Origin: Cypionkella psychrotolerans
GTDB taxonomy: Bacteria; Pseudomonadota; Alphaproteobacteria; Rhodobacterales; Rhodobacteraceae
Reading direction: 5' to 3'
DNA length: 64,000 bases
NCBI RefSeq assembly: GCF_001294535.1
Contig: NZ_LGIC01000031.1
Location: forward strand, 124,001-188,000
Part shown: in pieces, positions 31,337-47,055 of the stretch
Position numbering within the stretch: the first letter of the stretch is position 1
Layout of the letters: every line of letters begins with the position of its first letter
Program-made: the position numbers and the translations under genes
The notes under the pieces: generated by a model
The model's database searches: none
Seen by the model: only the letters and a program-made list of their open reading frames with translations
Told to the model about the DNA's origin: nothing

Positions 31337-31987
31337 TCAGGACAGCGCCGCCAGTAGGTCCATGGCGGTGATTTGGTCGAATTGGACGTGGCGGTGCATC
31401 AGGGTCTCGGCCCCGGCTGCATCGCGGGCGAAGATCAGCGTGGCGATGGCGCGGTGCTCAGTGGCAGAGGTGGCGATGGCCCCGGCATAGCGGTAGCGGG
31501 CACGGTAATAGGCCAGAAGCTTGCGGGCATTGGTTTTGATCATCTCGGTCAAGAACGGGTTGCCTGCGGCCAGCGCCACACATTCATGAAAGCGCAGGTT
31601 CAGCTGGTAATAGGCATCGGGGTTGGCGTCGCCTTGTTCGGTCGAGAATGTCTCACAGGCTTGCACGGCGGCTTCTAGCGCTGTGGCCCAAGACACCGAC
31701 AGACGGCGGGCGGCGAGGCCTGCGGCTTGACCTTCAAGTTTGGCGTGAACTTCGAGGATGGCCAAGAATTCCTCAAGGCTGGGGCGGAACACTGTCGCCC
31801 CCTTGCGCGGCAGGCGGCGCACAAGGCCCATGGCTTCGAGTTGTAAGATAGCTTCACGGACGGGGGTGCGGGAGACGGTGAATTCGGCGACCAGTTCGGC
31901 CTCATCAATCAGATCGCCGGGGTTGAGGCGGCCTGTGTCGATCCACGATAGGATCTTATTGGTGAGGGTTTCGGTTTGGCCTGCCAT
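31337..31987 (-). CDS. GntR-family regulator with FCD domain
   Basis: The 216-residue regulator has an N-terminal winged helix (LNPGDLIDEAELVAEFTVSR, then TPVREAILQLEAMG). The C-terminal FCD domain (about residues 75-205) has metal-ligand candidates in LNLRFHE and TEHRAI. It has no adjacent partner gene on its strand. The convergent M20 peptidase is the only close neighbour, so its target is unclear. Confidence 0.87.
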   Translation of the reverse strand: MAGQTETLTNKILSWIDTGRLNPGDLIDEAELVAEFTVSRTPVREAILQLEAMGLVRRLPRKGATVFRPSLEEFLAILEVHAKLEGQAAGLAARRLSVSWATALEAAVQACETFSTEQGDANPDAYYQLNLRFHECVALAAGNPFLTEMIKTNARKLLAYYRARYRYAGAIATSATEHRAIATLIFARDAAGAETLMHRHVQFDQITAMDLLAALS

Positions 31988-32320
31988 GTCTGATCAAAAG
32001 ACCGAAAAGGCTGTCAGGTAAAGGGGGATAGCCGGAATACTTCATGTAACGTCCGGTTGATTGTTTCGAAAATGCAACCAATGGGAGATTGACGCGTAAT
32101 GGCTTCCGCGCCATGGCTGCACGAAAGAAGATGATCTGTAGCGCGAAAGCCGCAAATGTAGCTGAAATGAGGGGGAAATCTGACAAATTCAAGGCACGCT
32201 CGGCCGAACCACTAGAAATCGCATCGCGACCTTTGTATCCCTATCAGCAATCAGCCCCCGAAAGTGGGGCGAATAACACGCCGGGCACGAAAGCCTGGGT
32301 TTTTGAGGCGGAGCAGTAAG
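31988..32320 (+). promoter_or_regulatory. Long leader/promoter region of the adhesin operon
   Basis: These 333 bp lie between divergent gntR and the adhesin gene, with no convincing coding frame. Two stem-loops lie close to the start codon. One is GCCCC(C)GAAAG(T)GGGGC at 32254-32270. The other, CCGGGC-ACGAAA-GCCTGG, is followed by GTTTTT at 32281-32304. The second resembles an intrinsic terminator placed immediately before the ribosome-binding site, suggesting control of read-through. Confidence 0.5.
32281..32304 (+). terminator. Attenuator-like hairpin in the adhesin leader
   Basis: The 6-bp stem CCGGGC/GCCTGG (one G-U pair) with loop ACGAAA is followed by G and five T residues. It ends 17 bp before the adhesin start codon. 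Its position inside the leader makes it a candidate conditional terminator. Confidence 0.45.
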
Positions 32321-35300
32321 ATGGTAAAAGCGATTGATTTCGCGGTCCGCAATGTTGCGGGCGGCGCGCAGCATGGCAGTGTCGCAGGCAACAGCCAAGG
32401 CAATTTCATTCAGGTTGGTTCGGGCGATAGCGTTTCACTGAACCTCTCCCGCGCAAGCGTGGTGGGCTATGAGCAGCAGGGCGGCGATTTGCTGGTCAAG
32501 CTGTCGGATGGCCGCAGCATCGTGCTGAGCAACTATTTCAACGAACAGCCGGGAGATGTGAACCATCTCTATCTTTCCTCGGATGGCGAGATCACCGAAG
32601 TGATCGTCCACGAGGGTCAAGGCGGCGTGCTGGCGGCGGATTACGGACCGGTCAGCGGCTGGGACAAGTGGAGCCCGCTCGACGATATGCGCTTTACCCA
32701 AGCGGATAGCATCTCGGATGTGGCGATGGTGTCGAACGAGCCTGCTGGCATGGCGCCGTTTGTGCCGGGCCTTCTGGGCTTGGGCGGTTTTGGCGCGATT
32801 GCTGCCGGGGCTGGCGCGATTGCTGTGATTGCTGGTGGCGGTGGTTCGGGTGGTGGCGGTGGTGGTGGCACGCCTGACACGACCCCGCCTGCGGTGGCTG
32901 TGACCGAGGGCACCAAATCGGTGAACCATGTTGAGAATGCCGCAGATTATGTGAATGGCGTGGTGATCGCTGGCACCAGCGAGCCGGGTGCGAAGATCGA
33001 CGTTTTGGTCAATGGCCATACGCAGACTACCGTGGTGGATAGCACTGGGCACTGGACAGTGACCTTCCCGACGAAGGAAGTGGATCCCGGCGAATATGAA
33101 ATTCCGGTGGTGGTGAAGGCCACCGATGCAGCGGGCAACAGCACGACCTGGAACGATGTTCTGGTGGTCGATACCATGCCGAACCCGATCGACTTTGATG
33201 CAGTGACGGGCGACGACAAGGTGAACTTTGTCGAGAATTCGACCGGATTGGTGGTGGCAGGCACCTCGATTGCGGGCGCGACTTTGGATGTGACGCTGAA
33301 TGGCGTGACGAACACGGTTGTGGTCGGCTCGGACGGGCATTGGACCACGACCTATCCGACTGGCACCCTGCCCGCTGGGGAATATACCCAAACGATTACC
33401 GCGACTTCGACGGATAACCACGGCAATACCTCGACCTCGACCCATACGTTCGCGGTGGATACCGAGACTTCGGTGGCCTTCACAGGCACGCCGGGTGGCG
33501 ACGGCATGGTGAACGCAAGCGAAGCGGCAGCGGGTGTGGTGCTGAACGGCACAGCGCAGGCGGGGGCATCGGTTTCGGTGGCATGGAATGGCACGACGCT
33601 GACCACGACCGCCAATTCGAGCGGAGTGTGGTCGGTGACCTATCCGGTGGGCTCGGTGACGGCGGGCACTTATACGTCGACCGCAACGGCGACGGCGACC
33701 GATAGCTTTGGCAACACCGCGACGGCAACCCAAGTGGTGAATGTCGACACTGAAACCTCGGTGACGGTGAACAATGGCCAGTCGGGCGGCGATGATGTGA
33801 TCTCTGGCGCTGAAGCTGCCGCTGGGGTGGCGTTGACCGGCACGGCGGAAGCTGGTGCTACGGTTGTGGTGACGATGGGCGCGGTTAGCCACACTGTCAC
33901 GGCAAGCGCTTCTGGCGCTTGGACCGCAAATTTTGCGGCCAGCGAAGTGACACCCGGCACCTATGACACGGTGGTTTCGGTGGTTTCGACCGATCTTGTA
34001 GGCAACAGCGCATCCACCACACATAACATCCATGTCGACACCCAGACTTCGGTTGCGGTGAATGCGGGCCAAGCTGGCGGCGATGATCTTGTCAACGCGG
34101 CAGAGGCAGCGGGCGGGCTGGTTTTGACTGGCACGGCGGAAGCGGGCGCTCAGGTGACGGTGGTGTTCCAAGGTGCGACCAGAATCGTAACCGCCAGTTC
34201 GACAGGGACTTGGAGCGCAAATTACACTGCCAGCGAAGTGCGCAGCGGCACCTATGACTCGACGGTGCAGGTGTCTTCGGTGGATGCGGTTGGCAATACC
34301 GCGACCACCACGCACAGCCTGCATGTTGACACCGAGATCGCAGTGGCGATCCCGGCGGGTCAGGCGGGCGGCGATGATGCAATCTCGGGCGCTGAACAGG
34401 CGGCTGGGCTGGTGCTGAACGGCACGGCGGATGCAGGGGCGACGGTTGTTGTTACCATGCAAGGCGTCAGCCATACCGTGACCGCAAGCGCTGCTGGCAC
34501 CTGGAGCGCGAATTTCGCGCCTAGCCAAGTGGCGGCCGGGACTTATGACTCGGTCGTGACGGTGCGGGCAACGGATGCGGCGGGCAACGTGGCAACCGCG
34601 TCGCATACCGTGCATGTCGATACCGAAACCAATGTGGCGATCACTGTCGGCCAAGCGGGCGGCGATGACATCATCAGCGGCGCGGAAGAAGCGGTTGGTG
34701 TGGCGCTGACCGGGACGGCCGAAGCGGGTGCAAGCGTGGTTGTGACGCTGGATGGTGTGAGCCATACCGTTATCGCCAGCAGTGCAGGCACTTGGACTGC
34801 GAATTTCTCGACCAGTGAAATCCGCTCGGGCACTTATGCCACGACCGCGACGGCTGTGGCGACCGATGCTTTGGGCAACACCGCCAGGACCAGCCATGTG
34901 GTGAATGTCGATACCGAGGTGGTGCCGTTTGACCGTGCGACCCTGTCGACCGGAGCGGATGTGATCCTGAACGCGGCAGAGGCCACCAGCGGTTTGACCG
35001 TGACGGGCCATGTTGAAGCGGGCTCGTCGGTGATGATCAAGTTCGGCAGCGGCGCGCAACATGCGGCCACTGTTGCAGCCGATGGCAGCTGGAGCTTCAC
35101 CATTCCGGCGGGCGAAATCCCGGCGGGTGAGAACTCGGTGACGCTGACGGCGGTGGCGACGGATCATGTTGGCAACGTCTCGACCCTGACCGAGCAGGTT
35201 GCGGTGGATACCATCGTGCGCAACTTCAGCCATGTTGAGGTGATTGCGGGCGACGATATTTTGAACGCAGCTGAACGCGCGGCTGGCCTGACGCTGACCG

Positions 35301-36088
35301 GCACGTCTGAGCCGTTCTCGACCTTGGTGCTGCATCTGGCCAATGGCTCGGAAGTGACGGCTTCGGTCGGCGCGGATGGGCTGTGGAGCGCGACTTTCCC
35401 GGCATCGTCCCTTCCGACAGGTGAGGGTGACACCACGGTCACGGTGACGGCAACGGATCATGCGGGCAATACTGCCAGCTATACCGACAGCTTCCACTAT
35501 GACACCGTGATGCCGAATGATCCGTGGATCACCAATGACGCGGGCAGCGGAAACGTGATATTTGGCGTTGCGACGGCAGTATCGCCGGATGACCTGACCT
35601 ATCACGCGGTCGCGGCGACGGGCGCAGCGACCATGCTGCAAGACCTTGGGGGCCCTCCCGATGCCGCAATCAATTCGGTTCAAAGCCACTGGGCGTTCTT
35701 CGGCACTCCGGTGGCCGATGGCAGCTATCTGGTGATCAACGACACCGATGCGGCGGGCAACGAGCAGAGCACTTTGTATCTGCGCTCGACCACCGATGTG
35801 ACGGTGGATCTGAACCGCGAAGGTCTGCATGGCTTTGACTTCGGCACCATCGACCTGACGTCTTCGAAAGCGACTTTGACGCTGACCGAGGCGCAGATCA
35901 ACAGTCTGACCGGGGCGGATCACCAGATGGCGATCCGCGGCGGTGCGGATGATCACGTCAATATCGTGGGTGCGGTGGCAGGGGCGCATCAGGTGGTGAA
36001 CGGCGAGAGCTACACGCTCTACACGCTGGGCAGCAGTGGGGCTTCGGTGTTGGTTGACGACGATATCCACGTCAATACCGCTGTTTGA
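32321..36088 (+). CDS. BapA-like repeat adhesin exported by type I secretion
   Basis: This 1255-residue cell-surface or biofilm adhesin starts with a BapA-prefix-like beta region (about residues 1-110). Next come a hydrophobic Gly/Ala stretch (150-171) and a poly-glycine linker. About nine Ig-like repeats of roughly 96 residues each (about 187-1064) follow; most end VDT, with inner motifs GGDD, LTGTAEAGA and TDAAGN. The C-terminal 190 residues differ and probably hold the secretion signal. No RTX nonapeptides are obvious. The protein is acidic and cysteine-poor. Dedicated TolC, ABC and HlyD genes follow directly, which fixes the export route. Confidence 0.88.
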   Translation: MVKAIDFAVRNVAGGAQHGSVAGNSQGNFIQVGSGDSVSLNLSRASVVGYEQQGGDLLVKLSDGRSIVLSNYFNEQPGDVNHLYLSSDGEITEVIVHEGQGGVLAADYGPVSGWDKWSPLDDMRFTQADSISDVAMVSNEPAGMAPFVPGLLGLGGFGAIAAGAGAIAVIAGGGGSGGGGGGGTPDTTPPAVAVTEGTKSVNHVENAADYVNGVVIAGTSEPGAKIDVLVNGHTQTTVVDSTGHWTVTFPTKEVDPGEYEIPVVVKATDAAGNSTTWNDVLVVDTMPNPIDFDAVTGDDKVNFVENSTGLVVAGTSIAGATLDVTLNGVTNTVVVGSDGHWTTTYPTGTLPAGEYTQTITATSTDNHGNTSTSTHTFAVDTETSVAFTGTPGGDGMVNASEAAAGVVLNGTAQAGASVSVAWNGTTLTTTANSSGVWSVTYPVGSVTAGTYTSTATATATDSFGNTATATQVVNVDTETSVTVNNGQSGGDDVISGAEAAAGVALTGTAEAGATVVVTMGAVSHTVTASASGAWTANFAASEVTPGTYDTVVSVVSTDLVGNSASTTHNIHVDTQTSVAVNAGQAGGDDLVNAAEAAGGLVLTGTAEAGAQVTVVFQGATRIVTASSTGTWSANYTASEVRSGTYDSTVQVSSVDAVGNTATTTHSLHVDTEIAVAIPAGQAGGDDAISGAEQAAGLVLNGTADAGATVVVTMQGVSHTVTASAAGTWSANFAPSQVAAGTYDSVVTVRATDAAGNVATASHTVHVDTETNVAITVGQAGGDDIISGAEEAVGVALTGTAEAGASVVVTLDGVSHTVIASSAGTWTANFSTSEIRSGTYATTATAVATDALGNTARTSHVVNVDTEVVPFDRATLSTGADVILNAAEATSGLTVTGHVEAGSSVMIKFGSGAQHAATVAADGSWSFTIPAGEIPAGENSVTLTAVATDHVGNVSTLTEQVAVDTIVRNFSHVEVIAGDDILNAAERAAGLTLTGTSEPFSTLVLHLANGSEVTASVGADGLWSATFPASSLPTGEGDTTVTVTATDHAGNTASYTDSFHYDTVMPNDPWITNDAGSGNVIFGVATAVSPDDLTYHAVAATGAATMLQDLGGPPDAAINSVQSHWAFFGTPVADGSYLVINDTDAAGNEQSTLYLRSTTDVTVDLNREGLHGFDFGTIDLTSSKATLTLTEAQINSLTGADHQMAIRGGADDHVNIVGAVAGAHQVVNGESYTLYTLGSSGASVLVDDDIHVNTAV

Positions 36089-36103
36089 TCAGGGAAACGG
36101 GCG

Positions 36104-37432
36104 ATGCCCAAGAACAGCAAGAACGGGTCCGGGAACGGGGTGAAATACCTCGTTCCGGCGCTGGCAGGGCTTGCTCTGCTGGCGGGCTGCATGGGGGGGG
36201 CGAAGGCACCTTCGATGCTGCAAACGCATGAGCAGGCGGGGCAGAGTGCGGTGGGGGCTCTGGGGCAACCTGCGGGATCGGGCCTGATCGGAAATTTACA
36301 GGGGCGACGCTCGGTTTTGCCGCCGGGAGGCGCTTATGCGAAAGTGTCCGACGCGGTGATCCATGCCAGCGCTGGCGCGGCAGAGGCCGAGTTGCGCGTG
36401 GCGCGGCTGAAGGCGAATGCGCAGTCGAAGAACTGGCTGCCGTCGATTGGACCTTCGGTGAACCTGTCCTCGCTGGGTGGGTTGGCAGCAAGTTTGTTGC
36501 TGGAGCAGGCTTTGTTCGACAACGGGCGGCGTAAAGCTGAGCGGGCGTTTGCTTCGGCTGATGTCGAGGTGGCGGCGGTCAGCCTGTCCACCGCGATGAA
36601 TCAGCGGGTGTTTGAGGGGTTGTCGTATTACGTCAATGCCCAACGGGCGCGGGCGCAGGCCGTAGTGGCGCAGGCGGCCGCGGGCCGTTTGCAGGAATTC
36701 AACGCGATCATGGGCAAGCGCGTGGCGGGCGGTCTGTCGGATGGATCAGAACAGCAGGTCTTGAACCAACGTGTTGCCGAAATGCAGGCGACGGTGGCGG
36801 TGGATCTGCAGACCGAGTCCAGCCAGATAGCGCAACTGGCGGCTTTGGCCGGGCAACCTTTGGGCGGGATCAGCGGCTTGGATGCGCTGCCCGATCTGGG
36901 CCAATCCACTGCCGAGCCTTTGGCGGTGGTGAAAGCGCGGGGTGAAGGCGCGCGGGCGGTTGCACAAGCGCAGATACAACTCGCCGGGTTGAAGTTTGGC
37001 CTGTCGGCGACGGCGGGTCTGGATGACGGCGGTGTGAACCCCGGCGTTCGGCTGAATGGCGCGGGGCTGTTGAACCCCGGCGCGAAGGACAACATCGCGG
37101 CATTGCAGCAAACCGGGGATGTGGTGGATCGTCAGACGGCGGAAGCCGCCGAAACCGCCAATCGCCGTATTGTCTCGTTGCAGCAGCAGAAGGCCAATTT
37201 GGCCTCGCGCCGGGCGCAGGGCGATGAGGTGCTGCGGCAGACGGCGGCAAACCTTGATCTGTTCACGCAGCAATACAAGGTCGGGCGGCGGACTCTGCTG
37301 GAGTTGGTTGGCCAATACGACGCCTATGCGCGGCTGCAGCGCGATCAGGCCTCGCTGGGCTATGACATGGCACTGATTGATCTGGAAATCGCCCGGGATC
37401 GTGGGTTGTTGGTAGATGGGGCACGGATGTGA
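36104..37432 (+). CDS. TolC-family outer-membrane lipoprotein of the adhesin secretion system
   Basis: The 442-residue outer-membrane channel component carries a lipoprotein signal (about residues 14-29, LAGLALLAGC, lipidated Cys). The rest is long amphipathic helices with TolC/OEP character (EAELRVARLKANAQSKNWLP, and QYKVGRRTLLELVGQYDAYA near the end). It lies 15 bp after the adhesin and overlaps the ABC gene start. TolC partners of adhesin systems (LapE-like) have this position. Confidence 0.88.
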   Translation: MPKNSKNGSGNGVKYLVPALAGLALLAGCMGGAKAPSMLQTHEQAGQSAVGALGQPAGSGLIGNLQGRRSVLPPGGAYAKVSDAVIHASAGAAEAELRVARLKANAQSKNWLPSIGPSVNLSSLGGLAASLLLEQALFDNGRRKAERAFASADVEVAAVSLSTAMNQRVFEGLSYYVNAQRARAQAVVAQAAAGRLQEFNAIMGKRVAGGLSDGSEQQVLNQRVAEMQATVAVDLQTESSQIAQLAALAGQPLGGISGLDALPDLGQSTAEPLAVVKARGEGARAVAQAQIQLAGLKFGLSATAGLDDGGVNPGVRLNGAGLLNPGAKDNIAALQQTGDVVDRQTAEAAETANRRIVSLQQQKANLASRRAQGDEVLRQTAANLDLFTQQYKVGRRTLLELVGQYDAYARLQRDQASLGYDMALIDLEIARDRGLLVDGARM

Positions 37433-39732
37433 ATGACCGGGTTGTGGCCTTCGATATCAATGCGGGCCGGGTGGCTGCGGCTGGAGATATTGCCGCGCGT
37501 AGTGGCTCGGATGCGCGGGTGCCGCAGGGTCGGCACAACGCGCGGGCGCTAAGCCGGGCGCAACTGGCCACGGTATATGCCGGGCTCTGTGGTGTCGATC
37601 TGGCGGTGTCTGATGTGGTCGAGCAGATTCAGCTGGCCTCGGACGCGGGGCAGTTGGGCCTGCCGGAAGTGGCGCGGGCGTTGCGCAGTTGCGGAATTGC
37701 GGCGCAGGTGGATGCTGTGGCTACCCCTGCAGTTGGGCACTGGCCAGCTTTGGCCGAGATGACCTCGGGCCAGATCGTTTTGGTTCTGGGTGAGACGGCC
37801 GACGGCGTTGAGGTTTATGACACCAGCGTCGATAATATGCGCGCCGAGGTGCCGCATGAAGATTTCGCGCAGGTCTATGCGGGCCGGATTTTGCGGGTGC
37901 GCACCTCCGTTAAAGAACTTGAGACGCGGCATGTTGAGGCCGCGAAAACCCCGCATTGGTTCTGGGGTGAGTTTACCCGTTACAAACGGCAGTTGGGCGA
38001 GGTCGCTGCGGGGTCGCTGGTGGCGAACCTATTGGCAGTGGCGGTGTCGCTGTTCTCGATGCAGGTCTATGATCGGGTGATCCCGTATCAGTCGGAACCG
38101 ACGTTGTGGGTGCTGGCACTGGGCGCGATGCTGGCGATTGTGCTGGAAGCCGCTTTGAAGCTGGCGCGCTCGGGGCTGATGGATACGACGGGCAAGCGGA
38201 TTGAACTTTCCGTGCAGGCGCGGCTGATGGACAAGCTGTTGGGGATGAAGCACGGGCCGGGGCAGCGCAGCCCGTCATCGCTGTTTGCCGCGATGCGCGA
38301 GTTTTCCTCGGTGCGCGAGTTTTTCACCGCAACCACAATCGGCACGATGGCGGATTTGCCGTTTATCCTGATTTTCCTCGCCTTGGTGGCCTCGATTGGC
38401 GGCAATCTGGTGTGGATTTTGATTGCGGGCGGCGCGCTGATGGTGCTGCCGGGTTTCCTGTTTCAAAAGCGCATGGTGGCTTTGACGGCGGCAACGCAGG
38501 GCGCTTCGACCCGTGCAGCACGGTTGCTGTATGAAGCGATCTTTGAGGCCGAAACCGTCACCACCCAGCGCGGGGAAGACCGGATCAAGCGGATTTGGGC
38601 GGAACTTTCCACGCTGTCGGCGGTGAAATCATCCGATCAGCGGCATCTGACGGCGATGCTGGGCTATTGGGCGCAGGGTGTGCAGCAGGCGACCTATGTT
38701 CTGGCGGTGGTCGCCGGGGCTTATCTGGTGTTTGCTGGCGATTTCACGGTGGGCACGATCATTGCCATCGGGATTCTGACCGGTCGGACTTTGGGGCCAT
38801 TGGCCTCGCTTTCCTCCACCATGTCGAAATGGACCAATGTGAAGGCCGCTTTGGACGGCCTAGAGGCGATTGTAGGGTCCAATCAAGCCGAGGAAACCGG
38901 ACGTCACTATCTGCGCCGCGACAAGCTGGTGGGCGCGTTTGAGTTGCGCAATGTCGAGTTCCGCTATGATCCGAAAGCGGCGACGACTGTTGAAATCAAC
39001 GGCCTGTCGATCCCGGCAGGGCAGCATATTGCGGTGCTGGGCGCGAATGGCTCGGGTAAATCGACGTTGTTGCGCGTGCTGGCTGGGCTTTATGAGCCTT
39101 CGGCGGGGCGCGTTTTGATCGACGGCGTTGACCTCAACCAAGTACATCCGCGCGATTTGCGGCGAGGCGTTGGCTATCTGGGGCAGGAAGTGCGGCTGTT
39201 TGCGGGCACGCTGCGCGACAACCTGAATATGTCTCAGCTAGAGCGCAATGATGACCGTCTGTTCGCTGCGCTGGATTTTGCAGGACTGGGGCCGTTTGTG
39301 CGCAGCCATCCGAGGGGCCTCGATCTGGAGATCCGCGAGATGGGCGAAGGTCTGTCGGTGGGTCAGCGTCAAAGCATCGGCTGGGCGCGGATTTGGCTGC
39401 AAAACCCGCGCGTTGCGATTTTGGATGAACCGACGGCGGCGCTGGATCAGACGCTGGAGACCACTCTGGTTAGTCGGCTGAAAACTTGGTTGGACGGGCG
39501 GACCGCGATCATCGCCACGCACCGGGTGCCGATTTTGCAACTGACCAACCGGGTGGTGATCATGCAGAACGGGCGATTGGTAGTCGATGGGCCTAGGGAA
39601 GCCGTGTTGGCACATCTGAACAATGGTGGCGTGGCAGCGCAGGCCCCTGCCCCGGCAGCTGGGGTTGCAATTGGCAGCGTCACGTCGGTGAAAAAGCCAT
39701 TCACCATGCAGGTCGGGGGGGCGAAGCCATGA
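37429..39732 (+). CDS. Type I secretion ABC transporter (permease/ATPase, LapB-like)
   Basis: This 767-residue half-transporter has three parts. The N-terminal C39-like domain (about residues 35-160) has no peptidase-type Cys motif and probably acts only in docking. Six membrane helices (about 185-460) follow. The ATPase domain has Walker A GANGSGKSTLL (about 538), signature LSVGQRQSIG (about 642) and Walker B VAILDEPTAALD. The GTG start at 37429 overlaps the TolC-gene stop. The lack of the catalytic Cys fits export of an uncleaved adhesin. Confidence 0.93.
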   Translation: MNDRVVAFDINAGRVAAAGDIAARSGSDARVPQGRHNARALSRAQLATVYAGLCGVDLAVSDVVEQIQLASDAGQLGLPEVARALRSCGIAAQVDAVATPAVGHWPALAEMTSGQIVLVLGETADGVEVYDTSVDNMRAEVPHEDFAQVYAGRILRVRTSVKELETRHVEAAKTPHWFWGEFTRYKRQLGEVAAGSLVANLLAVAVSLFSMQVYDRVIPYQSEPTLWVLALGAMLAIVLEAALKLARSGLMDTTGKRIELSVQARLMDKLLGMKHGPGQRSPSSLFAAMREFSSVREFFTATTIGTMADLPFILIFLALVASIGGNLVWILIAGGALMVLPGFLFQKRMVALTAATQGASTRAARLLYEAIFEAETVTTQRGEDRIKRIWAELSTLSAVKSSDQRHLTAMLGYWAQGVQQATYVLAVVAGAYLVFAGDFTVGTIIAIGILTGRTLGPLASLSSTMSKWTNVKAALDGLEAIVGSNQAEETGRHYLRRDKLVGAFELRNVEFRYDPKAATTVEINGLSIPAGQHIAVLGANGSGKSTLLRVLAGLYEPSAGRVLIDGVDLNQVHPRDLRRGVGYLGQEVRLFAGTLRDNLNMSQLERNDDRLFAALDFAGLGPFVRSHPRGLDLEIREMGEGLSVGQRQSIGWARIWLQNPRVAILDEPTAALDQTLETTLVSRLKTWLDGRTAIIATHRVPILQLTNRVVIMQNGRLVVDGPREAVLAHLNNGGVAAQAPAPAAGVAIGSVTSVKKPFTMQVGGAKP

Positions 39733-40910
39733 GCCTTGCCACCTATGACGAAGGCTTTGCCGAAAAGACTCGCGGCCCCAGCCGCACGATCTGGATGATT
39801 GTCGTGGTGATGGTGGTGTTCGTGGCTTGGGCCTCGGTGGCTTGGGTCGATGAGATCGTGCGGGCGCAGGGTGAGGTGGTATCCTCCAGCAGGCCCCAGA
39901 TCATCCAGAACCTTGAGGGTGGGATTCTGGCGGAACTGAATGTCGCCGAGGGCGATGTGGTGGAGCCGGGGCAGACATTGGCGCGGCTGTATGGCACGCA
40001 ATATCAGGCCGCGGTGGATGAGTTGTCGGATGAAATCGCCACCTTGGAAATCCGCCGTTTGCGGCTGGAGGCCGAGATGAATGGCGCGCCAGGGTTTGAC
40101 GTGCCGAAGATATTTGCGCAGAGGGTGCAGGATGTTGTGGCCTCGGAAAAGGCGCTGCTGACAGCGCGTCTTAGCGAATATGACGCGCGGGTGGGTGGCG
40201 CGCAGGCGGTATTGGAGCAGACCTCCAAAGAGGCGGAACTGCTGGAGAAAATGTATAAGCAAGACATCGCGCCGCTGATCGAAGTGACGCGCGCGCGCCG
40301 GGATAATTCGGACGCGAAGAACAAGCTGTCAGAGGCGCGCACCACCACCGAGATGGAGCGGGCGACGGATTACGCCAAGACCGAAAGTGACCTCGCGGGG
40401 CTGCGGCAAAAGCTGAAACTGGCGCAAGACCAGTTGTCACGCACCGTGCTGGTGGCGCCAATGAAGGGGGTGGTGAACAAGCTGTCGATCACCACGATTG
40501 GCGGCGTGGTCAAGCCCGGTGAGGAAATTTTACAGATCATCCCGCTGGATGACGCTTTGTTCATCGAGGCGCGGGTGAAGCCGCGCGACATTGCCTCGGT
40601 GCGCGAAGGCTTGGACGCGACGGTGAAGCTGTCGGCCTATGATTACACGATTTATGGCTCGTTGAAGGCCAAGGTGGTGTTCATCTCGGCCGATACGTTC
40701 AAGGATGAACGCTCGCGTGATCCGAATGGCGATCCGCACTACAAGGTGACGCTGGCGGTGGATCAAAGCAAGTTCACTGCGCGGCAGAAGGGGCTGGAGA
40801 TTAAGCCCGGTATGCAGGCAGATGTGGAGTTGGAGACGGGTGGCAAGACGATTCTGACCTATCTGACCAAGCCGCTCTATAAGTCGAATGAGGCTTTGCG
40901 GGAGCGGTAG
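39729..40910 (+). CDS. HlyD-family membrane fusion protein (LapC-like)
   Basis: The 393-residue periplasmic adaptor links the ABC exporter to the outer-membrane channel. It has a cytoplasmic N-terminus, one membrane helix (about residues 21-41, IWMIVVVMVVFVAWASVAWV), and a biotinyl-lipoyl-like half (SRPQIIQNLEGGILAELNVA). A coiled-coil hairpin spans about 95-240, and the second lipoyl half and beta-barrel follow (VVNKLSITTIGGVVKPGEEI). It overlaps the ABC gene by 4 bp and ends the operon. Confidence 0.94.
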   Translation: MSLATYDEGFAEKTRGPSRTIWMIVVVMVVFVAWASVAWVDEIVRAQGEVVSSSRPQIIQNLEGGILAELNVAEGDVVEPGQTLARLYGTQYQAAVDELSDEIATLEIRRLRLEAEMNGAPGFDVPKIFAQRVQDVVASEKALLTARLSEYDARVGGAQAVLEQTSKEAELLEKMYKQDIAPLIEVTRARRDNSDAKNKLSEARTTTEMERATDYAKTESDLAGLRQKLKLAQDQLSRTVLVAPMKGVVNKLSITTIGGVVKPGEEILQIIPLDDALFIEARVKPRDIASVREGLDATVKLSAYDYTIYGSLKAKVVFISADTFKDERSRDPNGDPHYKVTLAVDQSKFTARQKGLEIKPGMQADVELETGGKTILTYLTKPLYKSNEALRER

Positions 40911-40985: not shown

Positions 40986-41094
40986 CAAGCAAGGCATCAC
41001 GCGGCTTTTGGGAAATAGCTAAAATCCAATCGCTTAAGCCTTGGTAAAGCCTGTTCGGCTATACCTGACCGTGGGTGTGAAACATGGGTGTGTG

Positions 41095-41940
41095 ATGGCC
41101 GGGCAATCAAATGCCGCGCCAGTCATCATCAAGCGGAAGAAAATTATCAAAGCCAGCGGTCACCACGGTGGGGCGTGGAAAGTGGCCTATGCTGACTTTG
41201 TGACGGCTATGATGGCCTTCTTCATGCTGATGTGGCTGTTAAACGCGACGACGGAAAAACAACGTAAGGGAATCGCGGATTACTTCAGTCCTACGATTGC
41301 GATCAGCCGGGTTTCCGGGGGCGGCGACAGCATGTTCGGGGGGGACTCGACGTTCTCCGAGGAGGCGCTTGCTCAGAATGGCACCGGGGCCAGCCTCGCG
41401 CAGCCAACCGAAAGTGACAAGGCGCGTGGCGAGTCTGGTTCGGCCGAGAAGGATGCAGACTCGGCGGCAGAACAGGGCCGGATGGCTCAGATCGCGCAGA
41501 CTCTGATGGCGCAGGGCGGCGAAAGCATGACCATGCAGCGAATGCTGCGGCATGTGGTGACTAAGGTCACAGATGAGGGCTTAGTGGTTGAAATATTTGA
41601 TCTTCCGGATGCACCCTTGTTCTTGGATAACACGGCGGAACCCACGGGGGAGACTCGGAAGATTGCCGGGTTGATCGCCGAAGTGTTGGGCCTGGCTGAG
41701 AATAAAATCGCGGTGAACGGCCATCTGCGCACCTTGCCAATCACCTTGAAAGACAACCCCGCTTGGGATCTTTCCACCGCGCGGGCGCAGGCGATCCGGG
41801 CCTTGCTGGAAAGTGATGGCATTGCCAGCGCCCGGATGGCGCGGATCAGTGGCCATGCCGACCGCAAGCCCGCCACGCAAGATCCGACGGCAATCCGTAA
41901 CAACCGGTTGGAGATCATTCTGCTGCGCAAGGACCGATGA
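41095..41940 (+). CDS. motB: Flagellar motor stator protein MotB
   Basis: The 281-residue stator subunit has its single helix with the proton-carrying aspartate D34 in VAYADFVTAMMAFFMLMWLL. An OmpA-like peptidoglycan-binding domain follows (about residues 150-280, ending SGHADRKPATQD and NNRLEIILLRKD). A low-complexity polar linker joins them. motA is not adjacent. The ATG at 41095 was chosen over a GTG immediately upstream. It is transcribed toward flgE. Confidence 0.93.
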   Translation: MAGQSNAAPVIIKRKKIIKASGHHGGAWKVAYADFVTAMMAFFMLMWLLNATTEKQRKGIADYFSPTIAISRVSGGGDSMFGGDSTFSEEALAQNGTGASLAQPTESDKARGESGSAEKDADSAAEQGRMAQIAQTLMAQGGESMTMQRMLRHVVTKVTDEGLVVEIFDLPDAPLFLDNTAEPTGETRKIAGLIAEVLGLAENKIAVNGHLRTLPITLKDNPAWDLSTARAQAIRALLESDGIASARMARISGHADRKPATQDPTAIRNNRLEIILLRKDR

Positions 41941-42032: not shown

Positions 42033-43388
42033 ATGACGATTTCCTCATCAATGAACGCGGGAGTGGCGGGGCTAAATGCCAACGCCAACCGACTTGCGAC
42101 GATTGCCGACAACATCGCGAACTCGTCGACTTATGGCTACAAACGAGCCGAGACGGATTTTCATTCGGTTGTGCTGAATGGCAGTGCGCAGTCCAGCTAT
42201 TCGGCAGGCGGAGTGCGGGCCTCGAATATGCGGTTGATTGATGAACGCGGGCCGCTGATTTCGACCGCCAATGCCACCGATCTGGCGATTGATGGCCGGG
42301 GTTTTCTACCAGTGACCGATGCCGGGTCGCTGGATAGCACCGACAGCACCTATCCGATTTCACTGGTGACAACTGGTTCGTTCCGCCCGGATGCCAATGG
42401 GGTGTTACGTACCGAAACCGGGCTGGTGCTGATGGGCTGGCCTGCCAACCCGGATGGCGGCCTGAACACCTATCCGCGCGATACGATGGCGGCGCTAGAA
42501 CCAGTGCGCATTAACGCCAACCAATATATCGGCAACCCGACGTCAGAAATGACACTGGGCGTGAACCTGCCCGCCTCCGCCAGCATTGCCGGGGCTTCGG
42601 GCGATCCGCATGATCTGACGGTCGAATATTTCGGCAATCTCGGCACCTCGGAATCGCTGGATTTCAGCTTTACCCCGACAGTGCCCGCCACCGGGGCCTC
42701 GAACGCTTGGACGATGACGGTGCGCGACAGCGCCTCGGGGGGGGCGGTGATTGGCGAATATACGCTGACCTTTGATCCCTCACAGTCAGCGGGTGGCACG
42801 TTGGCCTCGGTCACGGCGGTGTCAGGCGGGGCCTATGATCCGGCAAGTGGCACAATCCCACTATCGGTAGCGGGTGGCGGCATTTCGTTGAAAGTGGGTG
42901 AGCTTGGCCAACCGAATGGGATGACCCAGCTGTCCAGCAGCTTCGCCCCGGTGTCGATCAGCAAAAACGGCTCTCCCGTCGCCAGCCTGACCTCGGTTGA
43001 GATTGATGAAAAGGGCGATCTTTACGCGATTTATGATCAGGGCTTCACCCGGCGGATTTACCAGATTCCGGTGGTGGATGTACCAAACCCGAATGGGTTG
43101 ATGGCGATGAACAATCAAACCTATCAGATCTCAGCGGCCTCTGGCCCGTTCTATTTGTGGAATGCAGGTGATGGACCAACCGGCACAGTGGTGGGCTTTT
43201 CGCGCGAGGAATCCTCGACCGATGTGGCGGCGGAACTGACGCAATTGATCCAGACCCAGCGCGCCTATTCCTCCAACGCCAAGGTCATCCAGACCGCAGC
43301 GTTGTCTTTGGCGTTGGCCACCGATTTACCCGTCGAAATCTCCGACTGGGTTTTGTTCATATTGTGGTTGATGCTTTTCATGGTCTGA
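42033..43388 (+). CDS. flgE: Flagellar hook protein FlgE with C-terminus replaced by fusion
   Basis: The N-terminal and central parts are normal for a hook protein: GLNANANRLATIADNIANSS near residue 12 and the FlgE beta domains through LMAMNNQTYQISAASGP. The C-terminal helix is intact only to TQRAYSSNAKVIQT. The expected last dozen or so residues (a VDEMLQE-type ending) are missing. Instead 30 residues follow, ending in the hydrophobic VLFILWLMLFMV, encoded by the antisense of a flagellin gene. The switch occurs at an 8-bp sequence, CCAGACCG (43289-43296). The product is probably non-functional because the hook needs its terminal helix. Confidence 0.88.
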   Translation: MTISSSMNAGVAGLNANANRLATIADNIANSSTYGYKRAETDFHSVVLNGSAQSSYSAGGVRASNMRLIDERGPLISTANATDLAIDGRGFLPVTDAGSLDSTDSTYPISLVTTGSFRPDANGVLRTETGLVLMGWPANPDGGLNTYPRDTMAALEPVRINANQYIGNPTSEMTLGVNLPASASIAGASGDPHDLTVEYFGNLGTSESLDFSFTPTVPATGASNAWTMTVRDSASGGAVIGEYTLTFDPSQSAGGTLASVTAVSGGAYDPASGTIPLSVAGGGISLKVGELGQPNGMTQLSSSFAPVSISKNGSPVASLTSVEIDEKGDLYAIYDQGFTRRIYQIPVVDVPNPNGLMAMNNQTYQISAASGPFYLWNAGDGPTGTVVGFSREESSTDVAAELTQLIQTQRAYSSNAKVIQTAALSLALATDLPVEISDWVLFILWLMLFMV

Positions 43389-43429
43389 AGCGCAACCATG
43401 GCACTGTTATTGGTCAAAATGGACGACAT
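43265..43429 (-). pseudogene. fliC: Flagellin 5' remnant (first 47 codons), fused to antisense flgE
   Basis: On the minus strand from the ATG at 43429 the frame reads MSSILTNNSAMVALQTMKSI, then NHNMNKTQSEISTGKSVANA and KDNAAVW. This is an unmistakable flagellin N-terminus with AAGGAA ahead of it. After Trp47 the sequence becomes antisense flgE and stops within eight codons. The remaining flagellin, normally a few hundred residues, is absent from the window. The break coincides exactly with the flgE break. Confidence 0.92.
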
Positions 43430-43651
43430 TGTCTGTTCCTTCGCGATCTGCCTGCGCTTTGCGCCCGGCATGGTGCGCCATCCTGCGATGGCTGATTTGG
43501 CGTTCTACCCGCTGCATCCAGAACCCGTTTCAGATCGAAGCCTGTTCCAGATGCGCCACCCCGTCGTGGGATGCAGATTGAATAAACAGCCAAAAGTTCT
43601 AACAGAATTCTAATGCCGCCCGACAATATGCGGCGGATTTGAAGCAAACCT

Positions 43652-43981
43652 TCACAACCGCCGCGACAATTCGCGCTGGCCACTCGGGCCCGAGCGTTGG
43701 CCGTTCTCGTCATAGGTCACCAGCCCGCTTGCGATTTGCCGCACATCCTTCATGCGTTGAATGGCTGCACGCACGCCCTTGGCCGCCGCACCCGCACTGA
43801 TCGCGTTGCGCTCCGCTCTGCGTTGCAGCCGCCACAGCGCCTTCTCGTCCAAATGCTGCGGTAGATTGGCCAATGCCGTATCCAACGCAGGCGAAAGCTG
43901 CCCCAACGCGTAATAATCCGCCGCCAGAATCGCCACGTGCATCGCTTCCATTAAGCTTTCAATCTGCATCTCAGGCTGCAT
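43652..43981 (-). CDS. FlgN-like flagellar protein (putative chaperone)
   Basis: The 109-residue protein is all helical (IESLMEAMHVAILAADYYAL, then an Arg/Ala-rich second half with RNAISAGAAAKGVRAAIQRM). The spacing of leucines and the RNA...A..G motif recall FlgN-type hook-filament chaperones. It overlaps the 3' end of the FlgJ-like gene and points toward the flagellin remnant. The assignment rests mainly on position and helix pattern. Confidence 0.6.
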   Translation of the reverse strand: MQPEMQIESLMEAMHVAILAADYYALGQLSPALDTALANLPQHLDEKALWRLQRRAERNAISAGAAAKGVRAAIQRMKDVRQIASGLVTYDENGQRSGPSGQRELSRRL

Positions 43982-44255
43982 GATCTTGTCCTTTCGTCAT
44001 GGCGTGAAACAACTGTTCGGCCAGCCCGATGCCACCCTTTTCAACCATCTGCCGGGCCTGTTCATCGCGCAGGAAGGATCCAAACTGATCCTCACCAATA
44101 CCTCCGCCGAAACTCTCCGGGGTTTTGCCAACCCCCGCATATCCCAGCATTTCTGACAGAAAACTGGCCTCCAGCGCTTTGGCCTGCACCATCATCGGAT
44201 TGTCATCGGCAGTCTTACGGAAGGGCTGCATGGGCGGGGTGGAAGAAATCTGCAT
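43971..44255 (-). CDS. FlgJ-like rod-binding protein (CheL type)
   Basis: The 94-residue protein matches the N-terminal rod-binding half of FlgJ: AKALEASFLSEMLGYAGVGK, then DQFGSFLRDEQARQMVEKGG and IGLAEQLFHAM. The muramidase half is absent, as in other alphaproteobacterial flagella. CAGGAGC five bases upstream supports the ATG at 44255. It is divergent from fliK, with about 108 bp shared promoter. Confidence 0.85.
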   Translation of the reverse strand: MQISSTPPMQPFRKTADDNPMMVQAKALEASFLSEMLGYAGVGKTPESFGGGIGEDQFGSFLRDEQARQMVEKGGIGLAEQLFHAMTKGQDHAA

Positions 44256-44363
44256 CAAAAGCTCCTGATCCTTCGGATTTTTCCTAGTATCGGCGATGGC
44301 GGTAAACAGGTGGTAACCAATCAGCGGAATAAAGGGACTCAGAGCGGTAGAAGTCGGTGAGAG

Positions 44364-46325
<1,962 letters not shown>

Positions 46326-46401: not shown

Positions 46402-47055
46402 ATGGAAACCTCCACTGTCACCACCGCCCAGACAACGGCCAATAGGACTCCTTCCAAAGCCGCCATCTCGGCAGATTTTGATACATTTCTAAAGATGATG
46501 ACGACGCAGATGAAGAACCAAGACCCGACGAAGCCGATTGATTCGGCAGATTACGCTGTGCAACTGGCGACCTTTTCCGGGGTCGAGCAGCAGACCAAAA
46601 CCAACCAACTGCTGGAAGGCCTGACCAGCCAGTTCGGCGTTCTCGGCATGGCGCAGCTGGCGGCTTGGGTCGGGCAAGAGGCCCGCTCTGCCGCCCCGGT
46701 CTATCTGGGCGACGATCCCGTCACCATCAGCTATCAGCCCAAAATCCACGCCGATCGCGCGGTTCTGGTGGTGAAAAATGCGCAAGATCAGGTCATCTCC
46801 CGCGAAGATGTCTCGCGAGAGGGCGGAACCTATCAATGGCTTGGCGCGGATGCAGCCGGAAATCCTCTGCCGAATGGCATCTATTCCCTCAGCCTTGAAA
46901 GCTATAGCGGCACGCAGCAGTTGGGCGATGCCGCAGCCGTCGAATCCTATGCAAAGATCCTTGAGGCACGCGGCGGGGCCAATGGCCCTACACTGGTTTT
47001 GGCGGGCGGGGTCGAGGTAAACGCCACAGAAATCACTGCCCTGCGCGTGCCTTAG
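46402..47055 (+). CDS. flgD: Flagellar hook assembly scaffold FlgD
   Basis: The 217-residue hook-cap protein has the N-terminal signature DFDTFLKMMTTQMKNQDPTK, then PIDSADYAVQLATFSGVEQQ. The FlgD Ig/tudor part begins near residue 85 and has GGTYQWLGADAAGNPLPNGIY. AAAGGAG lies ahead of the ATG. It is last in the fliK-flgD unit. Confidence 0.95.
   Translation: METSTVTTAQTTANRTPSKAAISADFDTFLKMMTTQMKNQDPTKPIDSADYAVQLATFSGVEQQTKTNQLLEGLTSQFGVLGMAQLAAWVGQEARSAAPVYLGDDPVTISYQPKIHADRAVLVVKNAQDQVISREDVSREGGTYQWLGADAAGNPLPNGIYSLSLESYSGTQQLGDAAAVESYAKILEARGGANGPTLVLAGGVEVNATEITALRVP

Follow-up and report, generated by a model that had tools for sequence, protein, structure and literature searches.

Site-specific inversion systems switch flagellin in bacteria, and in E. 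coli lacI, deletion hot spots lie between short direct repeats. Losses of the fla1-type flagellum are a third point of comparison: passages of a survey of 306 Rhodobacterales genomes (PMC12363192) report 218 fla1-type clusters and 51 taxa with none, describe a fla1 tree that mirrors the species tree and call the losses independent, and a table in the same paper gives the gene order fliC-flgN-fliK-flgD. Its main text makes no mention of truncation, pseudogenes, relics, residual genes or breakpoints.

Here we analyse a 64,000-nucleotide stretch of the Cypionkella psychrotolerans genome (the window), in which the hook gene flgE is joined to the start of a flagellin gene read in antisense. As at the lacI hot spots, the pattern is one of recurrent deletion between short, imperfect direct repeats, although here the repeats lie 25 kb apart, many genera are involved and the homology, which is weak, is bettered at other sites. 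Like the flagellin-switching inversion systems, the event has a precise joint that turns flagellin off, but it is a deletion, the segment is gone and no shared recognition arms were identified. The locus also resembles the sporadic losses of PMC12363192, in which a chromosomal, vertically inherited cluster disappears from scattered lineages, sometimes with another flagellar system present; unlike in that account, the flgE-sparing losses found here share one joint to the codon, and the passages there describe none. Among the matches listed in the literature on flagellar clusters, loss and deletion, a search with subscription journals mostly outside its scope, we recognised no such shared joint.

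A hook gene joined to an antisense flagellin start

The locus is a remnant of a fla1-type cluster, with motB and flgE to the left of the joint, fliC, a flgJ-like gene, fliK and flgD to the right, and the gene order kept:

41041 to 41940, plus strand: motB, kept left of the scar; Pfam MotB_plug and OmpA.
42033 to 43388, plus strand: flgE', 451 codons, made of hook codons 1 to about 422 and then in-frame antisense flagellin; matched by Pfam.
43290 to 43300, no strand assigned: the joint, with CAGACCGC common to both partners in the relative G001 and the crossover at or just right of CAGACCGC.
43265 to 43429, minus strand: flagellin stub, with its start codon at 43427-43429, 47 flagellin-like codons, seven more from antisense flgE and a stop at 43265-43267.
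43430 to 43519, minus strand: retained fliC leader, containing GCGCAAAGCGC at 43454-43464; compared in joined and unjoined loci.
43652 to 43981, minus strand: FlgN-like gene, by position only; no Pfam match.
43971 to 44384, minus strand: FlgJ-like rod-binding protein; Pfam Rod-binding.
44364 to 46325, plus strand: fliK; Pfam Flg_hook.
46402 to 47055, plus strand: flgD; Pfam FlgD and FlgD_ig.

The hook frame runs to SSNAKVIQT, continues as AALSLALATDLPVEISDWVLFILWLMLFMV and then stops, while the reverse complement of 43289-43429 reads as 47 flagellin codons, MSSILTNNSAMVALQTMKSINHNMNKTQSEISTGKSVANAKDNAAVW, at the head of a stub frame of 54 codons. Pfam recognises Flg_bb_rod, FlgE_D2 and Flg_bbr_C in flgE' and, in the stub, positions 1-44 of the 139 of Flagellin_N. 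G001, the closest relative found, aligns to the window on both flanks of the joint, one BLAST segment ending at 43297 and the next beginning at 43289, and the 8-bp stretch common to both partners there is CAGACCGC (43290-43297). The original prediction, a fusion of flgE to 47 codons of antisense flagellin, is thus confirmed by the reading of the frames, by Pfam and by the BLAST segments. The 8-bp breakpoint that it placed at 43289-43296 stands in so far as a short stretch fits both partners, but the stretch that the partners share in G001 lies at 43290-43297, and other lineages cross about one codon further to the right.

Two features beside the joint are worth recording. Within the retained leader, GCGCAAAGCGC forms a small palindrome with an A-rich loop, and GC-arm/AAA elements resembling it occur upstream of many flagellin starts, joined and unjoined. 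Just left of motB, 32264-40910 holds a type I secretion block in which outer-membrane efflux, ABC transporter and HlyD genes come after a repeat-rich ORF of 1274 codons; this ORF differs in length from that of G001, window positions 33754-34827 being without a partner, and in locus L005 the block is missing and the gene of window position 31337 adjoins motB.

Between the same two points, three relatives carry extra DNA of nearly constant length (G001, 25,233 bp; G005, 25,254 bp; G007, 25,245 bp). In G001, Pfam identifies in this interval FlgK, a Flagellin_C protein in the flgL position, FlgI, FliP, a FliN-type protein, FliF, FliL, MotA, an SLT protein, FlhA, FliR, FlhB, FlgH, FlgA, FlgG, FlgF, two small rod proteins, FliI, a DUF1217 protein, FlbT, FlaF and the rest of FliC, along with some ORFs without a match. 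The scar seems to record one deletion of about 25 kb between flgE and the convergent fliC, in which the core of the ancestral fla1 cluster was lost; that one event truncated both a hook and a flagellin gene, as had been proposed, agrees with the longer intervals of the three relatives.

Searches of the window's genome with DNA of the G001 region (best 40 of 168 and best 40 of 247 candidates scored) returned the flanks only, plus short scattered matches to one repeat-like stretch. The genome has no FlhA, no second Flg_bb_rod protein over the cut-off and no flagellin start other than the stub, and thus lacks the FlhA, rod proteins and flagellin of a working fla1 cluster. As it has no FlhA, no other flagellin and no second rod or hook protein, the cell should build no flagellum. 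We infer a cell without a flagellum, which fits the non-motile state suggested at the outset; of the second flagellar set suggested along with it, these searches found no sign.

Recurrence across the Rhodobacteraceae

The same joint is carried by 17 genomes, the window's included. Two congeners match the full 131-bp joined sequence (G003, 86%; G012, 87%). Among 75 named loci with a readable flgE end, flgK lies directly downstream in 70, and the other five have an antisense flagellin start at the same register: L005 (= G003), L070 (= G012), Shimia sp. CNT1-13L.2, Roseicyclus sp. M30B42 and Marivivens niveibacter. A search for the joint pattern in 394 family genomes, about one per genus, matched 13, or 12 after removal of G219, which we left out of the counts because it is a one-mismatch chance match: the 13 kb read at that place contain no flgE, and the genome's own flgE is intact elsewhere. 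Read backwards, the pattern gave no hit in the 394 genomes among the matches listed, which puts the joint above chance expectation.

A fla1-type FlgE was present at E <= 1e-70 in 302 of the 394 genomes. We read the downstream state of 130 fla1 flgE loci sampled from the matches listed for this FlgE, a set that excludes some intact loci and the joined genomes G312, G171, G398, G170 and G188 (read separately), and found flgK in 128, the joint in two (G000 and G184) and nothing else. The 75 named and 130 sampled loci overlap in genomes, and their counts are not additive. Among the loci read, only two states exist downstream of flgE, flgK or the joint, in a survey that is blind to deletions removing flgE itself or starting inside flgK or beyond.

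The surroundings recur as well. In the other 16 joined genomes, motB lies left of the joint in 15 (in the exception, G012, the contig ends first), and the flgJ-like gene, fliK and flgD flank it in all. FlhA is missing from 11 of the 17; in the other six it is encoded outside the joint region, as expected of a separate flagellar system. A flagellin match was found in each of the 60 unjoined genomes searched. Relatives with the same joined sequence had been named as a finding that could undo the original prediction, if theirs were an intact functional locus; joined relatives do exist, but their joints are repeated losses, not an intact flagellar locus. The single scar had mainly been read correctly as a deletion, and the point of interest beyond one window is that it recurs throughout the family.

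Position of the crossover and a probable repeated origin

The codon that follows IQT in flgE, codon 422, helps to place the crossover. Over 97 locus rows, in which some genomes appear twice, it is Val in 86, Ala in 10 and Leu in one, the Ala carriers being the window, its nearest kin and one further locus. Among joined loci the window has Ala422 and the other 16 have Val422. Had flagellin supplied Val422, it would need Thr46, which occurs in none of the 51 unjoined flagellins read; with Val422 kept, the crossover in the non-window lineages must lie about one codon right of the 8 bp first described. Codon comparison thus puts it at about window register 43298-43300 in those lineages, with stub codons 46-47 derived from flgE, the window itself being ambiguous. 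Every joint appears to bear the flgE codon 422 of its own lineage. Thr46, present in all joined genomes except the window, was also considered as a mark of common origin or of convergent selection and dropped, as it is explained by flgE Val422 as against Ala422 in the window's kin.

On an FlgE tree of 119 rows, 17 of them joined, the joint requires at least 13 changes of state, 11 of which are forced by well-supported branches, with 12-13 over bootstrap trees; a quick tree of 92 rows gave 13 changes, nine of them forced. The joined rows show mild clustering (a value as low arose in 5 of 500 shuffles) and include three groups of joined sisters, which may be a sampling effect because the unjoined rows come mainly from a search seeded with the window's protein. 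We infer that the joint probably arose anew in many lineages; the clustering, and the stub neighbours described below, would leave room for inherited joints in some.

Several other origins of the shared joint have to be weighed against such repeated deletion. The original prediction saw an assembly or chimera artefact as the main alternative, and the window's genome is indeed a draft (5.08 Mb in 93 contigs, with completeness rated at 100% and contamination at 2%, the joint lying within a 245-kb contig). An assembly or library artefact is nonetheless next to negligible because 17 genomes share the joint, three of which (G298, G171 and G398) are listed as one contig each, and because the genes in question are lacking from a genome with a full completeness rating. 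Convergent genes and a precise joint would also suit the edge of an inversion, as first suggested, or a reversible phase switch, but inversion should join flgE to sense fliC where antisense is observed, the boxes at the two sites are direct rather than inverted repeats, and the segment was found elsewhere in the window's genome in neither orientation, leaving inversion as improbable as an artefact.

A single old joint, inherited or handed from one lineage to another when short DNA recombines homologously, for example through gene transfer agents, would account for the identical register in all 17 genomes and for the joined sisters on the FlgE tree. It would also suit the stubs: for 8 of 17 joined genomes the closest stub sequence comes from a second joined genome, versus 5 of 51 unjoined ones. 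The flgE end, however, is nearest to a joined genome in just 1 of 17, and the window's flanks match G001 right up to the joint, G001 being nearest on both sides (flgE end, 0.93; stub, 0.98). Such lineage-specific flanks, together with Ala422 in the window and Val422 elsewhere, each fitting the flgE of its own lineage, argue against the spread of one ready-made joint, which the number of changes on the FlgE tree also disfavours. The fla1 tree given in PMC12363192 as mirroring the species tree points the same way, and we regard an old joint as very unlikely.

Breakpoint choice and the fate of the remnants

Repeated deletion, the reading we prefer, has to account for the use of one breakpoint, and the homology at the joint is ordinary. 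Exact matching extends over no more than 8 bp in G001, 7 bp in G005 and 4 bp in G007. In 48 kb of G001 there are 18,247 direct-repeat pairs of at least 8 bp lying at least 10 kb apart, and the flgE 3' end alone offers 52-69 such registers in G001, G005 and G007. When matches between the flgE 3' end and fliC were ranked, the box at the joint topped the list in 4 of 27 genomes and had a median rank of 15 among about 1383; under a stricter mismatch cost the values were 3 of 27 and 22. Box homology is above average yet not exclusive to the joint, and these counts and ranks rule out the joint as the best homology on offer. Since its homology is ordinary, short homology alone leaves the reuse of the breakpoint unexplained. 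The microhomology-mediated deletion of the original prediction therefore survives in part: a repeat is found at both ends with one copy left at the joint (8 bp in G001, an imperfect box in the others), but repeat strength does not explain why this joint was chosen or why it recurs.

An identical joint every time is what site-specific recombination would produce, and this was found; similar arms flanking the core, which it would also call for, were not, as the flgE and fliC sites within each of G001, G005 and G007 are unlike outside the box over the 35 bases shown. Local folds are ordinary at either site, which removes hairpins as a cause. Pairing between the inner ends of the segment was stronger than in shuffled sequence in three Cypionkella-group genomes (z -2.1 to -2.8), but over 36 of the 37 pairs it was no general feature, with a mean z of -0.71 versus -0.18 for shifted windows and the lowest window in 10 of 36.

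Our best explanation overall, which we think probable, is a single deletion of the fla1 core that has recurred across lineages at the box, aided by a hot spot or a sequence-specific activity. Protein conservation would keep in both flgE and fliC an imperfect box, about 11 bp long, that reads CAGACCG followed by T or C and ends in NG or NGA. Recombination from box to box, with the crossover on the flgE-distal side of the box, would then remove the fla1 core between flgE and the convergent fliC and leave flgE' and the antisense stub. Because the homology of the box is not special, we propose that the site has some property of a hot spot or is the target of a sequence-specific activity. The event may be recent in the window's lineage, or the remnants may still be under constraint.

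The candidates left for the recurrence are a sequence-specific agent, a hot-spot property and selection on the product, and the finding of a single register inclines us towards the first two. Selection on the product would mean that flgE codons 1-422, perhaps with motB, flgD, fliK or the fliC leader, are useful outside the flagellum, so that only deletions sparing them persist and those from box to box are favoured. Consistent with this, flgE' is one open frame in 15 of the 17 joined genomes, for most of them FlgE resembles unjoined FlgE no less than unjoined FlgE proteins resemble each other, the stub has diverged further in some (0.63 and 0.65 versus a mean of 0.757, sd 0.028), and no third type of joint lies beside flgE in the 75 named or 130 sampled loci. 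A filter on the product should, however, also permit nearby in-frame joints, and young deletions would account equally well for the open frames. Long FlgE branches in G134 (0.61), G137 (0.73) and Marivivens niveibacter (0.33; loci L157, L152 and L047) speak against retention, as does the 0.85 FlgE-identity bin, in which MotB identity is 0.587 for joined pairs (3 pairs) versus 0.752 for unjoined ones (10 pairs); in most identity bins the relation between FlgE and MotB identity is alike for joined and unjoined pairs. Moreover, we know of no route out of the cell for FlgE without the export apparatus. We consider retention of the product possible but doubtful. Either the deletions are mostly young or flgE' retains a function.

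An agent at the box could also be imagined in a stronger form, which we put forward tentatively and consider unlikely: a putative sequence-specific activity of the Rhodobacteraceae would excise the 25-kb core from the flgE site to the fliC site. Switches to life without a flagellum would then be frequent, irreversible and for the most part short-lived, and the scarred genomes would be lineages sampled in that condition. In this widespread family the fla1 flagellum is known to have been lost repeatedly, which has been read as independent gene loss. If all flgE-sparing losses use one joint, then either a specific event at the DNA level would drive the loss or a filter for a particular product would act on it, and the joint would provide a simple marker for flagellum-free variants in sequence data.

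With G005 as outgroup, the window branch (G001 branch in brackets) has 5 (6) nonsynonymous changes in flgE, 2 (3) in motB, 4 (7) in flgD, 4 (3) in the flgJ-like gene and 29 (19) in fliK; in flgE, motB and flgD this is no excess. Along the window branch flgE' showed no relaxed selection; in comparisons of joined genera, dS is for the most part saturated. Relative to G001, flgE has 96% identity and a dN/dS of 0.06, and fliK 75% and 0.53, fliK being fast-evolving in unjoined pairs as well. The fliK frame (44364-46325) contains a run of Thr-Pro repeats. In the two joined genomes in which flgE' is broken, G298 and G012 (L149:8800-10061 and L161:4070-5313), the frame is interrupted near codon 290-297, by decay or sequencing error. 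The three genomes with long FlgE branches encode an FlhA at another site, as would be expected had a different flagellar system taken over at an earlier time.
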